This document shows, in pieces, positions 5,958-12,233 of a stretch of DNA of 64,000 nt; the stretch's first letter is position 1; each line of letters opens with the position of its first letter. A program made the position numbers and the translations under genes. Under the pieces are notes generated by a model that was given only the letters and a program-made list of their open reading frames with translations, was not told where the DNA came from and ran no database searches. This stretch comes from Aquificota bacterium (GTDB lineage: Bacteria; Aquificota; Aquificia; Aquificales; Aquificaceae). The stretch spans positions 666,544-730,543 of the forward strand of contig JAADEH010000012.1 of assembly GCA_013153495.1 (NCBI GenBank), given 5' to 3'.

Positions 5958-6746
5958 ATGAGGTTCGGAATTGTCGGATACGGGAACATGGGGAGCGCCT
6001 TTGCCAGAGCATTGTCCCGCTCTGTGGGAAGGGAAAACATAACCGTTTACGAAGTGAAGGAAGATAGAAGAGAGGAAGCTGTAAAGGACGGCTTCGCCGT
6101 AGCTCAAAACTTATACTTTCTCCTTCAAAACTCCGACGCACTCCTCCTTGCGGTCAAGCCCAAGGACATGAAAGCAGTCCTCGAGGAGATAAAGGAGCAG
6201 GTCAAGAACAAGATAGTCATTACCATAGCGGCAGGGCTTGAGATGTCCTTCTACGAGGAGGTTTTGGGCAAAGAGGTCAAGCTGGTGCGTCTTATGCCCA
6301 ACGTAGGAGTTCTGGTAGGTAGGGGAACTGTAGCAATGACCCACAACGGAAATCTTTCCGAGGAAGAGTTTGAGAGAATGACTCAGGTGTTCTCCTCCTG
6401 CGGTAGCCTATACCAAATCCCCGAAAGTCTCTTTGACAGCTTCACAGCCCTTGCGGGAAGCGGACCCGCTTTCGTCTTCGAGTTCATAGATGCCTTAGCC
6501 ATGGCGGGAGTGAGGGAAGGCTTTTCTTACCAAGAAGCCCTTTCCATAGTTCTGGACACACTCATAGGAAGCGTCCAGCTTATAAAAGAGCTTGGAGGAA
6601 ACCCCAACGAATGGATAACAAAGGTTACCTCTCCTGCGGGGACAACCATAGAAGGCATAGCCTACCTTGAGAGAAAAGGCTTCAGGGGGACCGTAATAAG
6701 ATGCATAGAGAAGACCTCCGAGAAGGCGAAGAAGCTAAAGAGCTAA
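5958..6746 (+). CDS. proC: Pyrroline-5-carboxylate reductase
   Basis: GIVGYGNMGSAFA, LMPNVGVLVGRG, ALAGSGPAFVFEFIDALA. Confidence 0.95.
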   Translation: MRFGIVGYGNMGSAFARALSRSVGRENITVYEVKEDRREEAVKDGFAVAQNLYFLLQNSDALLLAVKPKDMKAVLEEIKEQVKNKIVITIAAGLEMSFYEEVLGKEVKLVRLMPNVGVLVGRGTVAMTHNGNLSEEEFERMTQVFSSCGSLYQIPESLFDSFTALAGSGPAFVFEFIDALAMAGVREGFSYQEALSIVLDTLIGSVQLIKELGGNPNEWITKVTSPAGTTIEGIAYLERKGFRGTVIRCIEKTSEKAKKLKS

Positions 6747-7324
6747 TACACTCCCTTACCATAAAGGGTGCCGTTGTAGAAATCAAAAGGAAGTGGAAGG
6801 ACCACGAGCGACTCTTCCTGCCAATTCAAAAGCACACCAACCGTGTGATAGAACTAACGAGATTTCCCTACCCCCAAACCATAGCGGACGGTGTAATTAC
6901 GAACCTGCGAGGTGTTGAGATAGGAGTTAGAACTGCGGATTGTGCTCCGGTAGCTCTCGTGGGGGAGGAATGGATAGGGGTAGTTCACGTGGGCTGGCGG
7001 GGCTTGCATGCGGGAATATTAGAGAGAGCGATTGAGAAACTCCTACCGAGGGAAAGGGACATTTTCGCTTTCGTAGGTCCCTGTGCAAAGGGGTGTTGCT
7101 ACGAGGTGGGAAGGGAGTTTCTGGAACTCTTTCCCGGTTATGTGTTCGAAAGGGGTGAAAAACTCTACATGGACATGCAGGAGTCCGTAATAAAGAGACT
7201 CAAAAACCTCGGCATAAACAGGATAGGCTTTGTAGAAAGGTGCACCGTATGCTCTCCAGACCTTCCCTCCTACAGAAGGGATAGAACCGAAGAGAGGATT
7301 TTAACTTCCGTCAGGAAACTGTAA
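6701..7324 (+). CDS. pgeF: Purine nucleoside phosphorylase / laccase-domain protein (YfiH/PgeF)
   Basis: RTADCAPVAL, GVVHVGWRGLHAGI, FVGPCAKGCCYEVG; true start may be downstream of the listed one. Confidence 0.88.
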   Translation: MHREDLREGEEAKELIHSLTIKGAVVEIKRKWKDHERLFLPIQKHTNRVIELTRFPYPQTIADGVITNLRGVEIGVRTADCAPVALVGEEWIGVVHVGWRGLHAGILERAIEKLLPRERDIFAFVGPCAKGCCYEVGREFLELFPGYVFERGEKLYMDMQESVIKRLKNLGINRIGFVERCTVCSPDLPSYRRDRTEERILTSVRKL

Positions 7325-8441
7325 GTCCGTCGGATACTGTTGGGTCCGGTCTCTTGCCCGTGAGCATCTCGAGTAGCTCCTTGACGCTCACTATTCCCTG
7401 CTTCTTGAGCAGGTGTCCGTTGGCACCTATTATGAATATCCCCTCTTCGTAGTTGCCGAGCCATGCGGAGCCGAGCCTGTCCGCTATGCAAAAACCGACC
7501 TTCTTAGCCTCTTCTCCCCTGTTGCAGGGAGTAACACAGTTGGAGACGCACCCGTTCCACCCGTTAACCCCCGCAAGAAGTCTTTCTATGAAGGGAGTTT
7601 TTATAACTCTCAGTGGGTATCCCACGGGGGATTTGAGGAGTATTATGTCCTCCTCCTCAGCGTTCAGAACTATCTCCTTGTATATGAGGGGAGCATCGCA
7701 TTCGTGGGTTGCCACAAAGCGTGTAGCCATCTGAACCCCGGCAGCTCCCTGGTCTATATACCACTTTATGTCCTCGTAGCTCCATACACCCCCCGCAACT
7801 ATTACGGGAATGTCTCCCCACTTTTTAGCCTCTTCAAGGACGCTCGGAAGGAGATTTTCCAGCTGATACTCGGGTTTGAAGCAGTCTTCGTATTTAAAGC
7901 CTTGATGTCCTCCCGACTTGGGACCCTCCAAGACCACCGCATCGGGCAGGCGGTTGTATCTCCTCTTCCAGGTTTTGCAGATAAGGCTTAGCGCTCTTGC
8001 GGAGGATATTATGGGAACGAGAGCAACCTCGTATCCTTCCACATACTGGGGCAGAGAAAGGGGCAAACCCGCTCCCGAGATTATTAGGTCGGCTCCTGCC
8101 TCTGCGGCGTCCCTTGCCACCCTGCCGTAGTCGGTTATGGCGGCGAGTATGTTAACTCCGATAGCTCCTCTTCCCTCGGAAATTTCCTTGGCGTCCTGTA
8201 TTATTCTCTTCAGAGCCTCCGCACTGTGAGCGTTGACCGAGCCTATGGGTCTTCCGAACCGGTCCCTTTTGACGAGGTCGGGGTGTCTGTATCCAGTTCC
8301 CACGGCGGAGACGACACCTATGGCTCCCTCCCTTGCCACCGCACCCGCAAGGTTCTCCCAGGATATGCCCACACCCATTCCACCCTGGATTATGGGTATG
8401 TCCGCTTCTATGTGTCTTATCCTCAGCTTAGGTAAACTCAT
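7311..8441 (-). CDS. Nitronate monooxygenase / 2-nitropropane dioxygenase family
   Basis: PIIQGGMGVGISWENLAGAVAREGAIGVVSAVG, IVAGGVWSYEDIKWYIDQGAAGVQMATRFVAT; start after AAGGAG. Confidence 0.88.
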   Translation of the reverse strand: MSLPKLRIRHIEADIPIIQGGMGVGISWENLAGAVAREGAIGVVSAVGTGYRHPDLVKRDRFGRPIGSVNAHSAEALKRIIQDAKEISEGRGAIGVNILAAITDYGRVARDAAEAGADLIISGAGLPLSLPQYVEGYEVALVPIISSARALSLICKTWKRRYNRLPDAVVLEGPKSGGHQGFKYEDCFKPEYQLENLLPSVLEEAKKWGDIPVIVAGGVWSYEDIKWYIDQGAAGVQMATRFVATHECDAPLIYKEIVLNAEEEDIILLKSPVGYPLRVIKTPFIERLLAGVNGWNGCVSNCVTPCNRGEEAKKVGFCIADRLGSAWLGNYEEGIFIIGANGHLLKKQGIVSVKELLEMLTGKRPDPTVSDGLTVS

Positions 8442-8482: not shown

Positions 8483-9001
8483 ATGGGTGTCCAGTCAAGG
8501 AAGAGGGTCTTCTTCGGTCTGGGAAGCAACTTAGGGGACAGGGTAGGGTATTTAGAAGGAGCGGTCTGTCTGCTGAAGGAGGTCGGAGAGGTGACCTGTG
8601 TGTCCACCGTGTATGAAAGCCCTCCCTGGGGTGTAGAAAACCAGCCTGCCTTCTTAAACTGCGTGGCGGAAGTAAGAACGTCCCTTGACCCCTTTGAACT
8701 GCTCAGGTGGGCAAAGTCCGCAGAGCGCAGAATAGGCAGAAAGGAGCGCTTTCGGTGGGGTCCGAGGGAGATAGACATAGACATACTGCTTTTTGGAGAT
8801 GAGGTAATAGACAGCAGGGAGCTGAGCATCCCCCACAGGTTTTTAGAGGAGAGGGACTTCTTCCTCATACCTCTCCTTGAGATTGAGCCTTGTATAAAGA
8901 ACCCCCGAACGGGGGTCCTTCTAAGTAAATCTCTACCGAAGGTCTTTATAAACTTAAAACCTTTCTGCTGTCTTCTCAGTGGGCACCTTCACGGGACTTG
9001 A
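8483..9001 (+). CDS. folK: 2-amino-4-hydroxy-6-hydroxymethyldihydropteridine pyrophosphokinase
   Basis: GLGSNLGDR, ESPPWG.ENQPAFLNC, RWGPREIDIDILL, IPHRFLEERDFFLIPL. Confidence 0.93.
   Translation: MGVQSRKRVFFGLGSNLGDRVGYLEGAVCLLKEVGEVTCVSTVYESPPWGVENQPAFLNCVAEVRTSLDPFELLRWAKSAERRIGRKERFRWGPREIDIDILLFGDEVIDSRELSIPHRFLEERDFFLIPLLEIEPCIKNPRTGVLLSKSLPKVFINLKPFCCLLSGHLHGT
8901..8916 (-). terminator. Possible terminator hairpin for the minus-strand IscS-like gene, inside folK
   Basis: ACCCCC-GTTC-GGGGGT then TCTTTATA on the minus strand. Confidence 0.4.
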
Positions 9002-10205
9002 CATACTGTTCCCAGTTTTCCGGGTTGAAGGGGGAGAGGCTTCTGAGCCAGTTGACTATCTTGGGAAACTCCTCCGCTGCGTATTCAACGTCCTCGTCCG
9101 TGTTCTCCCTTCCGAAGCTAAAGACTATGGAACCGTTGGAAACCTCCTTGGGAACACCTATGGCGAAGAGAACGTGGGACTGCTTGAGAGCCAAAGAAAC
9201 GCATGCGGAACCCGAAGCGGTCTCTATACCCATCAGGTCGCATCTCAGAAGCATAGCCTCACCTTCTATGAAGTGGACTATCAGGGAAAGGTGGTGGGGA
9301 AGTCTCTGGGTCGGGTGTCCCGTAAACTCTATGTATTGGAGCTTCTCCTCTATGGCTTTCTTCAGTCTGTCCCTGTAATTGGCAAGTCTGGTCATTCTGT
9401 CCTCAAGCTCCTTCATGGTAAGCTCTGCGGCGGCTCCGAAGCCTACAATACCGGGGACGTTTTCCGTTCCCGCTCTTACACCCCTTTCCTGCGTTCCACC
9501 CTCTATGAGGGGTCTGACCTTAACTCCCTTTCTGGTCCACAGCGCTCCGACACCTTTCGGTCCATACATCAGGTGTGCGGTGAAAGATGCCGCATCAACT
9601 CCCCACTCCTTGAGGTCAACGGGGTAGTGTCCGAGGGTGGGTGCGGCGTCCGTGTGGAATATGACCTTGGGGTTCTTTTCCTTTGCAGCTTGAACGAGTT
9701 CCTTTATGTTCTGTATAGTTCCTATCTCCCTGTTGGAGTGTCCTATGGAAACGAGAACGGTGTCCTTCCTGACCGCTTCCTTGACCTGCTCCGGGTCTAT
9801 CAGTCCGTAGTTGTCGGGCTTGAGGTATGTAACCTCCCAGCCTTCCCTTTCGAGGGTTTTGCAGGGGTGGAGTATGGAGTGGTGCTCTATTTCGGTGGTA
9901 ACTATGTGCCTTCCCCTCTTCTTGTAGGCGCTTGCTATACCCTTTATGGCGAGGTTGTTAGCCTCTATTCCTCCGGAGGTGAAGACTATCTCCTCGGGCG
10001 TGTTGGCGTTTATAAGGGTAGCTATCTTCTCACGGGCTTCGTTTATAGCCTTCTTTGCCTCCTGCCCGAAGCTGTGCAGAGAGGTGGGATTTCCGAAACG
10101 TTCCCTAAAATAGGGGAGCATAGCCTCAAGGACTTCCTCCGCAACGGGAGTGGTGGCTATGTGGTCCAAGTAAACAACTCTACTTCCCGCTTTCTTTGCA
10201 AACAT
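8976..10205 (-). CDS. IscS/NifS-like aminotransferase class V protein lacking the PLP lysine
   Basis: NifS-fold motifs SGGIEANNLAIKG, EIEHHS, HTDAAPTLGHYPVDL, ASGSACVSLALKQSHVL; expected SxHK lysine is Leu (TAHLMYGPKG). Confidence 0.88.
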   Translation of the reverse strand: MFAKKAGSRVVYLDHIATTPVAEEVLEAMLPYFRERFGNPTSLHSFGQEAKKAINEAREKIATLINANTPEEIVFTSGGIEANNLAIKGIASAYKKRGRHIVTTEIEHHSILHPCKTLEREGWEVTYLKPDNYGLIDPEQVKEAVRKDTVLVSIGHSNREIGTIQNIKELVQAAKEKNPKVIFHTDAAPTLGHYPVDLKEWGVDAASFTAHLMYGPKGVGALWTRKGVKVRPLIEGGTQERGVRAGTENVPGIVGFGAAAELTMKELEDRMTRLANYRDRLKKAIEEKLQYIEFTGHPTQRLPHHLSLIVHFIEGEAMLLRCDLMGIETASGSACVSLALKQSHVLFAIGVPKEVSNGSIVFSFGRENTDEDVEYAAEEFPKIVNWLRSLSPFNPENWEQYVKSREGAH

Positions 10206-10217
10206 TCTATTACCTCC

Positions 10218-11282
10218 TTAACTTAATTCCTGAGCGACGAGCTTAGCTATACCGATAAATGCCTTCGAAACTTCCGATTCCGGTGCGCTGACCACGACAG
10301 GTTCTCCCTCGTCGGACTTCTCAGCAACCACGGGGTCTATTGGTATTGAACCGAGTATCTTAAGCCCGTATGCGGACGCAAACTCTGCGGTTTTACCCTT
10401 CCCGAATATGTAGTATCTGTTGCCCGTCTCGGGGCACACGAAGTATGCCATGTTTTCTATAACTCCCAGAACGGGTATCTGGACTTCTTTGAACATGGAG
10501 GTTGCCTTTTTAACGTCCGCAAGGGCTACATCTTGGGGAGTGGTTACCACTATGGCTCCCGATATGTCAACATTCTGAGCCAAGGTGAGCTGAACGTCTC
10601 CCGTTCCCGGGGGTAAGTCAAGTATCAAATAATCCAGCTCCCCCCACTCCACATCGAAGAGAAACTGGGTCAGAGCCTTCATGAGCATGGGACCTCTCCA
10701 TATGACGGGGGTGTCCTCGGAGGGGAGCATAAACCCTATGGAGAGAACCTTTATACCGAACTTCTCAACGGGAACTATTTTGTTGCGCTCGTTCACGGTA
10801 GCCCTCTCTCCTTTTAGACCCAAGAGGGTGGGAATGCTCGGTCCGTATATGTCCGCATCTAAAAGACCTACCTTGTAGCCGAGCTTTGAAAGCGCTAAGG
10901 CGAGGTTTGCGGATACGGTGGACTTACCCACTCCTCCCTTTCCGCTACCGACCGCTATAAGGTGCCTGACACCGGGAACTTTTCTCTTGGCAAAGGCAGG
11001 TTGACCCACAGGTATTTGGGGTCCTTGTTGAGGTTTGCTTTGCTGGGGCGACCCTTGGGCGAATCTTACCTTAACTCTGTCCACGTCGGGAAGACCAGCC
11101 ACCGCCTTTTCTACCTTTGCCCTCAGAACATCTTCAAGACCCGCTTTGGGAAGGTATAGTAGAACGTCAAGCTCCGTTCCTATGAGTTTTATGTCTTTTA
11201 CCAGCTGGGCGAGGTTCTCGCTCAATCCGAGGTCCTGAAGGGTTTCGGAACGCAGAGCGTCCATTATGTCCTTTACCGCCAT
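10218..11282 (-). CDS. Mrp/ApbC-family P-loop ATPase with N-terminal MIP18 (DUF59) domain
   Basis: IAVGSGKGGVGKSTVSANLALAL, LLDADIYGPSIP, LPPGTGDVQLTLAQ. Confidence 0.94.
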   Translation of the reverse strand: MAVKDIMDALRSETLQDLGLSENLAQLVKDIKLIGTELDVLLYLPKAGLEDVLRAKVEKAVAGLPDVDRVKVRFAQGSPQQSKPQQGPQIPVGQPAFAKRKVPGVRHLIAVGSGKGGVGKSTVSANLALALSKLGYKVGLLDADIYGPSIPTLLGLKGERATVNERNKIVPVEKFGIKVLSIGFMLPSEDTPVIWRGPMLMKALTQFLFDVEWGELDYLILDLPPGTGDVQLTLAQNVDISGAIVVTTPQDVALADVKKATSMFKEVQIPVLGVIENMAYFVCPETGNRYYIFGKGKTAEFASAYGLKILGSIPIDPVVAEKSDEGEPVVVSAPESEVSKAFIGIAKLVAQELS

Positions 11283-11384: not shown

Positions 11385-12233
11385 ATGAACATAGCGCCTG
11401 AGATTTTAAATTACCTCGGGGACAAGAGAGATTTTGCGGAGATAATTCTTGCACCCAAAGCCTCTCCCGTTGAAAGAAGGGAAAGGGGCATAAAAAAGAT
11501 ATTGGACCTGATTCTCTCTCCGGAAGACATAAGAGATACACTCGTTTCCCTTCGCTCCCACACTCCCGTTTCCCTCGGACCTCTCGGAAGGGAAGGCTTT
11601 TTCTCCTTCGGAATTCCCGAAGTAGGAAGGATAAGGGTTACATATCTGACCCAGAGGGGGAGCTACGTGGTGAGCATAGTTAAGGTTCCTTACGACATTC
11701 CCCCTCTACGGGACATTCTCTCGAGTGAGGCTGATATCGAACTTCTATTTAAAACCCTTAAGGAAAGCAGGGGAATTGTAGCGATAATAGGTAAGAGCTA
11801 TGTGATACACAACCTGTTTTCATACTCTCTCCTCAAAGAGCTTTGCGAGAGGGAATCGGGACTTATATACATACTGGAAAGACCCATAACCTACCTGATA
11901 AAGCACAGCAGTTCCATAGTTATCCAGAGAGAGGTGGGTGTTGACGTTGACAGCTTCGACGATGGAATAGAGGAAGCCCTATTCCTGCATCCGGAGATTA
12001 TCTACATAAGCGACATAACCATAAGGGAAGCCCTCAAGTCTGTTAGGAAACTCTTCGATATACCTATACTGACCATAATGAGTCTGACCGCCTCCGGTGT
12101 GGAAGCTCTGAAGAGAAGTTTTGAGGTGTTTTTAGAGGGAGAGTCCTCAAGCGCCATGAGATTAATTTCTAAGGTAATAGAGCTTGCTCTGGACGGAAAG
12201 GACAGGATAACCTTCTCGGTCAGAGACATATAA
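11385..12233 (+). CDS. PilT/GspE-like protein with degenerate nucleotide-binding motifs
   Basis: GRIRVTYLTQRGSYVVSIVKVPYDIPPL, LERPITYLIKHSSSIVIQREVGVDVDSFDDGIEEALFLHPEIIYI resemble PilT GRFRVN...HKKSIINQREVG...DPDVILVGE. Confidence 0.75.
   Translation: MNIAPEILNYLGDKRDFAEIILAPKASPVERRERGIKKILDLILSPEDIRDTLVSLRSHTPVSLGPLGREGFFSFGIPEVGRIRVTYLTQRGSYVVSIVKVPYDIPPLRDILSSEADIELLFKTLKESRGIVAIIGKSYVIHNLFSYSLLKELCERESGLIYILERPITYLIKHSSSIVIQREVGVDVDSFDDGIEEALFLHPEIIYISDITIREALKSVRKLFDIPILTIMSLTASGVEALKRSFEVFLEGESSSAMRLISKVIELALDGKDRITFSVRDI

Follow-up and report, generated by a model that had tools for sequence, protein, structure and literature searches.

We found that the open reading frame at positions 8976-10205 (reverse strand) of the window, a 64,000-nucleotide stretch of DNA from a bacterium of the family Aquificaceae (Aquificota), encodes a PLP-free homologue of IscS/NifS of 409 amino acids, which is named here iscS*. 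This assignment is based on profile matches, an AF2 model and PDB relatives. Comparison of the residues makes it well supported that iscS* is no longer a cysteine desulfurase, because five positions that bind PLP or the substrate have been lost together and the same ones are lost in its relatives. The first-pass annotation had reached this conclusion from fewer positions. iscS* appears to belong to the only Fe-S cluster assembly system of two hot-spring bacterial families, the Aquificaceae and a sister family of the Aquificota, which we take to be the Hydrogenothermaceae.

The frame starts with ATG and has no internal stops, so the claim of an intact frame of 409 aa stands. The Schiff-base lysine of E. 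coli IscS (K206) is replaced by Leu212, located in the stretch SFTAHLMYGPKG (aa 207-218) and surrounded by the codons TCT TTC ACC GCA CAC CTG ATG. The codon CTG (positions 9570-9572) is two changes away from AAG, in agreement with the earlier statement that more than one change separates this leucine from lysine. In the alignment with E. coli IscS, Asn155, which contacts PLP and substrate, is replaced by Arg159 (9729-9731), and Gln183, which contacts O3' of PLP, by Pro189 (9639-9641). These residues lie in the SNREIG and DAAP motifs that were already reported correctly. We also found two key losses that had not been noticed, the PLP-phosphate residue Thr76, now Ile80 (9966-9968), and the substrate-carboxylate residue Arg354, now Val361 (9123-9125). 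Conversely, the His of YLDH had been taken as a difference in the pocket, and we rejected it as a sign of pocket loss since canonical lysine-bearing IscS proteins carry N, H or Y there. The persulfide cysteine (E. coli Cys328) is retained as Cys335 (9201-9203) in ASGSAC, as the first-pass annotation claimed, and lies in a mobile loop (334-339) predicted to be disordered. Equivalents of H104, D180 and T243 are still present in the alignment. Near the C-terminus, SPFNPENW (9012-9035) corresponds to the IscU-docking tail of E. coli IscS (SPLWEM, within residues 374-404). All of these codons are on the reverse strand.

Profile searches place iscS* within the class-V aminotransferase Pfam family (E 7.5e-83). 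The best NCBIfam model is NifS (TIGR03402), with 484.8 bits against a curated cut-off of 530.75; the IscS model is also scored below its cut-off (397.5 vs 643.2 bits), and the broader subfamily model NF002806 is exceeded (333.5 vs 304). The AF2 model (pLDDT 91) has an intact fold type I, with very low confidence only in the Cys loop 334-339, and the structures closest to it are those of NFS1, IscS and A. fulgidus IscS. The top PDB relatives are likewise IscS and NFS1. iscS* has the same fold and length as E. coli IscS (about 42% identity) and TIGR03402 NifS, but the PLP and substrate residues present in those proteins are missing.

PDB entry 9wfy is an Aquifex-type orthologue named 'cysteine desulfurase'. 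It is 87% identical to the window protein, letter-identical over 405 aa to the lysine-less protein of genome G001, and has the same residues as iscS* at all five lost pocket positions. The variants that accompany it (9wfe, 9wfb, 9wf8, 9wew, 9wer and 9wep) differ from iscS* in having restored pocket residues. The changes are cumulative: R159N and L212K in 9wfe, followed by V361R in 9wfb, P189Q in 9wf8, I80T in 9wew and I16A in 9wer. The five pocket positions found independently here are among those altered by the depositors, and the series would read as the rebuilding of a site absent from the wild type. The series appears in the 2026 copy of the sequences; the structure library used, ending 2026-04-08, lists none of the 9w entries, and no paper on an Aquifex PLP-free IscS or on the 9w series was found in the literature searched.

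The lost lysine is a fixed character. Leu occupies the site in all 54 aligned Aquificaceae entries and Tyr in all 20 aligned entries of the sister family, some entries in each set being duplicate loci of one genome. We compared iscS* with the nine orthologues that gave an estimable dS, and obtained dN/dS values of 0.02-0.08, which are rough because dS is about 0.9 or above, yet far below 1. This points to strong purifying selection. Together with the fixed Leu and Tyr across both families, it rules out a sequencing error and a pseudogene in decay. Among 172 aligned homologues, which are related and partly duplicate rows rather than independent events, K206 is missing in 103. All 103 have also lost R354 and 102 have lost Q183, while C328, H104 and D180 are retained in every one. 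Of the 69 homologues with K206, 68 retain R354 and 66 retain Q183. The whole active site has been lost jointly in the lysine-less proteins.

An mrp/apbC-type gene, encoding a P-loop ATPase that carries Fe-S clusters, was identified by profiles 12 bp upstream of iscS* (10218-11282, reverse strand), and mrp is directly upstream in nearly all loci examined in both families. On the other strand, 11385-12233 encodes a 282-aa protein with no Pfam matches, conserved near mrp-iscS* in many Aquificaceae. The gene iscU lies 20-320 bp downstream of iscS* in most sister-family loci (about 2.1 kb in one genus), and in Aquificaceae it is found at a separate locus, the whole gene set there being split over two loci. 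iscU is followed by genes for a ThiI/MnmA-like PP-loop protein with an NFACT-R domain, TusA, a small protein, NifU-C (Nfu) and AroE; this order is the same in both families, with one locus of each read. The PP-loop gene between iscU and tusA (L066:4734-5780(-), L178:6559-7607(+)) possibly encodes a tRNA thiolase fed by the iscU operon. Its frame in L178 appears split into two overlapping ORFs.

Of 61 genomes of the two families, 59 encode IscU, as against none of 21 from other Aquificota families. The IscU ligands C37, D39, C63, H105 and C106 are all retained, and in the HscA motif of IscU LPPVK has drifted to LPPQK. The docking residues L380, R381, S384 and P385 are kept in the lysine-less proteins and missing from most canonical Aquificota copies. 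E. coli IscU requires the IscS C-terminus (PMC2854127), and the core LR..SP of this region is retained in iscS*. The pairing with IscU that marks the A. fulgidus type is seen here in the sister-family adjacency of iscU and in the conserved tail. The assembly of the window genome contains neither iscU nor the PP-loop gene, nor the kind of tusA that is linked to iscU; their joint absence from a genome that is 91.5% complete suggests an assembly gap as the simplest cause.

SUFBD is missing in all 23 tested genomes of the two families and present in all 4 tested genomes of other Aquificota. Ten genomes, eight of Aquificaceae and two of the sister family, are without any other NifS/IscS/SufS-like protein, and five weak class-V matches sampled from them are aspartate-glyoxylate-type aminotransferases. 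The first-pass annotation had proposed a search for a second, canonical gene, and the window genome does have one (G000:C10:79946-81034, locus L086), a NifS at 36% identity with GHK kept. This NifS is without the IscU-type C-terminus, and iscU is not near it in the locus examined. It adjoins fdhE, which suggests that it serves formate dehydrogenase/Moco sulfuration instead of general Fe-S assembly.

A second, very divergent lysine-less NifS was observed in Aquificaceae (L082:5242-6432(-), L083:5124-6212(-), L085:5530-6660(-), L090:1678-2781(-)), with Ser or Phe at the Lys site and the Cys kept as SSPC or STPC. All four loci place it between nifV and an aldehyde-ferredoxin-oxidoreductase-like gene and include a sigma-54 activator, and nifB is present in three. 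Nitrogenase clusters, too, may be assembled with no NifS desulfurase. One Aquificaceae assembly has a third, more divergent lysine-less IscS (L073:2154-3350(+), G030:C112), with Tyr at the Lys site, an NSPC Cys loop and no SPxW tail. No iscU was found near it, and the contig could be foreign.

The genome scan also revealed lysine-less, Cys-keeping IscS with Q, R, S, A, P or D at the Lys site outside Aquificota, on contigs labelled Dehalococcoidia (Chloroflexota), Nitrospirota, Thermodesulfobacteriota/'Deltaproteobacteria', Bacillota, WOR-3 and archaea. Many of these genomes are metagenome bins whose taxon labels may be wrong. Their lysine-less copies mostly abut iscU. A canonical copy coexists in most of these genomes, as a rule away from iscU, and in three genomes only lysine-less copies were seen. 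In a Hydrothermarchaeota contig, a lysine-less (Arg) and a canonical IscS stand in tandem (L110:4785-5969(+), 6200-7408(+)), followed by two iscU-like genes.

We found two archaeal proteins for comparison. A. fulgidus IscS (PDB 4eb5, 4eb7, 4hvk; D199K mutant 4r5f) has lost Lys, Gln183 and Arg354 and kept the Cys, and iscS* shows the same combination of lost Lys and kept Cys that defines this inactive type. The archaeal protein differs in carrying Asp in place of Lys and in keeping Thr76 and Asn155, and the pocket loss in Aquificota goes further. According to a passage of PMC7585200 that cites Marinoni 2012 and Pagnier 2014, A. fulgidus IscS is inactive and contributes a Cys as ligand of the [2Fe-2S] cluster on IscU. 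IscS1 of Methanosarcina acetivorans is also reported without the catalytic Lys and lies in an iscSU cluster (PMC7585200); it differs in being archaeal, coexisting with a canonical IscS2, forming inclusion bodies and being uncharacterised (PMC7585200). In an IscS tree built without the pocket columns and without long branches, a branch supported at 100/98 has the bacterial lysine-less proteins on one side, and the D-type IscS of A. fulgidus is nested among lysine-bearing proteins at 97/93. The AU test does not reject a single common lysine-less clade at the 5% level (p 0.057). The Lys loss in the A. fulgidus type is probably separate from the bacterial one, and the tree gives no support to A. 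fulgidus IscS as the closest kin in descent. The parallel that the first-pass annotation drew with this protein is thus apt for the mechanism and probably not for the ancestry.

Taken together, we consider it rather probable that iscS* descends from a desulfurase and now serves IscU as an obligate, PLP-free partner, with its Cys transiently ligating or gating the cluster in a sulfide-fed assembly. We infer that iscS* would form the usual (IscS)2(IscU)2 complex via its conserved C-terminus, and that the mobile Cys335 loop would reach the assembly site of IscU, where the Cys could be a temporary ligand or gate. Ferrous iron and free sulfide would supply the [2Fe-2S] cluster, a route already put forward for A. 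fulgidus IscS, and clusters would afterwards be passed on by the neighbouring Mrp ATPase. E. coli cells lacking IscS regain growth and cluster assembly when given H2S, provided that IscU is present (PMC13015791). The role as cluster ligand and co-scaffold is favoured because of the iscU linkage in the sister family, the docking C-terminus, the intact IscU ligands and the absence of another Fe-S system. Several observations count against it: iscU is absent from the window assembly, the window genome has a canonical NifS, and in Aquificaceae iscU is at another locus.

The tusA gene in the iscU operon would also suit a persulfide relay, a possible but less likely reading. Here a TusA, rhodanese or DsrE-type carrier would load Cys335, and the sulfur would pass to IscU or to a tRNA-thiolating PP-loop protein, making iscS* a sulfurtransferase that carries out no desulfurase reaction itself. 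Such carriers are abundant in sulfur oxidisers, several TusA copies occur per genome, both families have tusA and the PP-loop gene downstream of iscU, and the Cys loop is fully retained. However, E49 and D52 of E. coli IscS, where TusA docks (PMC2854127), are K and mostly N here, in contrast to canonical and other lysine-less proteins, most of which retain an acidic residue at position 52. These lost acids may weakly disfavour a relay from TusA. Since a scaffold or cluster ligand and a persulfide acceptor were the two roles that had been put forward from the first reading, that reading named the right pair of hypotheses and was largely right in its interpretation.

Pseudoenzymes often act in a structural or regulatory way, and the kept docking tail would fit a protein that only holds IscU competent or inhibited while its Cys is chemically idle. 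We regard this as improbable, because an idle Cys would not be expected to persist in the mobile loop of every aligned lysine-less protein. Use of PLP through another lysine, or bound non-covalently, is very improbable. The H104, D180 and T243 equivalents and the intact fold would allow it, but Thr76, Gln183, Lys206 and Arg354 are all lost, and the depositors' cumulative R159N, L212K, V361R, P189Q, I80T and I16A in the Aquifex-type orthologue speak against it. The least probable reading is a decaying paralogue or a heterodimer partner of a canonical desulfurase. It is suggested by the canonical NifS of the window genome, but it is opposed by the low dN/dS and largely refuted by the several Aquificaceae without a canonical copy. 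The ten genomes checked without one rule out the idea that a canonical partner is always present.

As a kind, the protein is known: A. fulgidus IscS is a precedent, and the 87%-identical orthologue is already in the PDB. What appears new here is the breadth of the lineage, the complete pocket loss and the genome context, including the lysine-less NifS in nif clusters. We tentatively suggest a wider scenario, which we hold with less than even confidence. An old bacterial IscS lineage would have lost PLP chemistry and become a dedicated co-scaffold of IscU, serving what would be the only Fe-S system of Aquificaceae and the sister family. These autotrophs would make clusters straight from sulfide, several species without any desulfurase, and a parallel lysine-less NifS would serve the assembly of nitrogenase.

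Homology-based annotation overcalls cysteine desulfurase in many genomes. In the textbook account, Fe-S cluster assembly begins with a cysteine desulfurase. In two bacterial families, however, the sole assembly system appears to work with a partner unable to be one. There the production of sulfur and the shaping of IscU, both tasks of IscS, would be separated, which offers a natural system for probing the Cys loop, and the finding bears on how clusters were made in early, sulfide-rich life.
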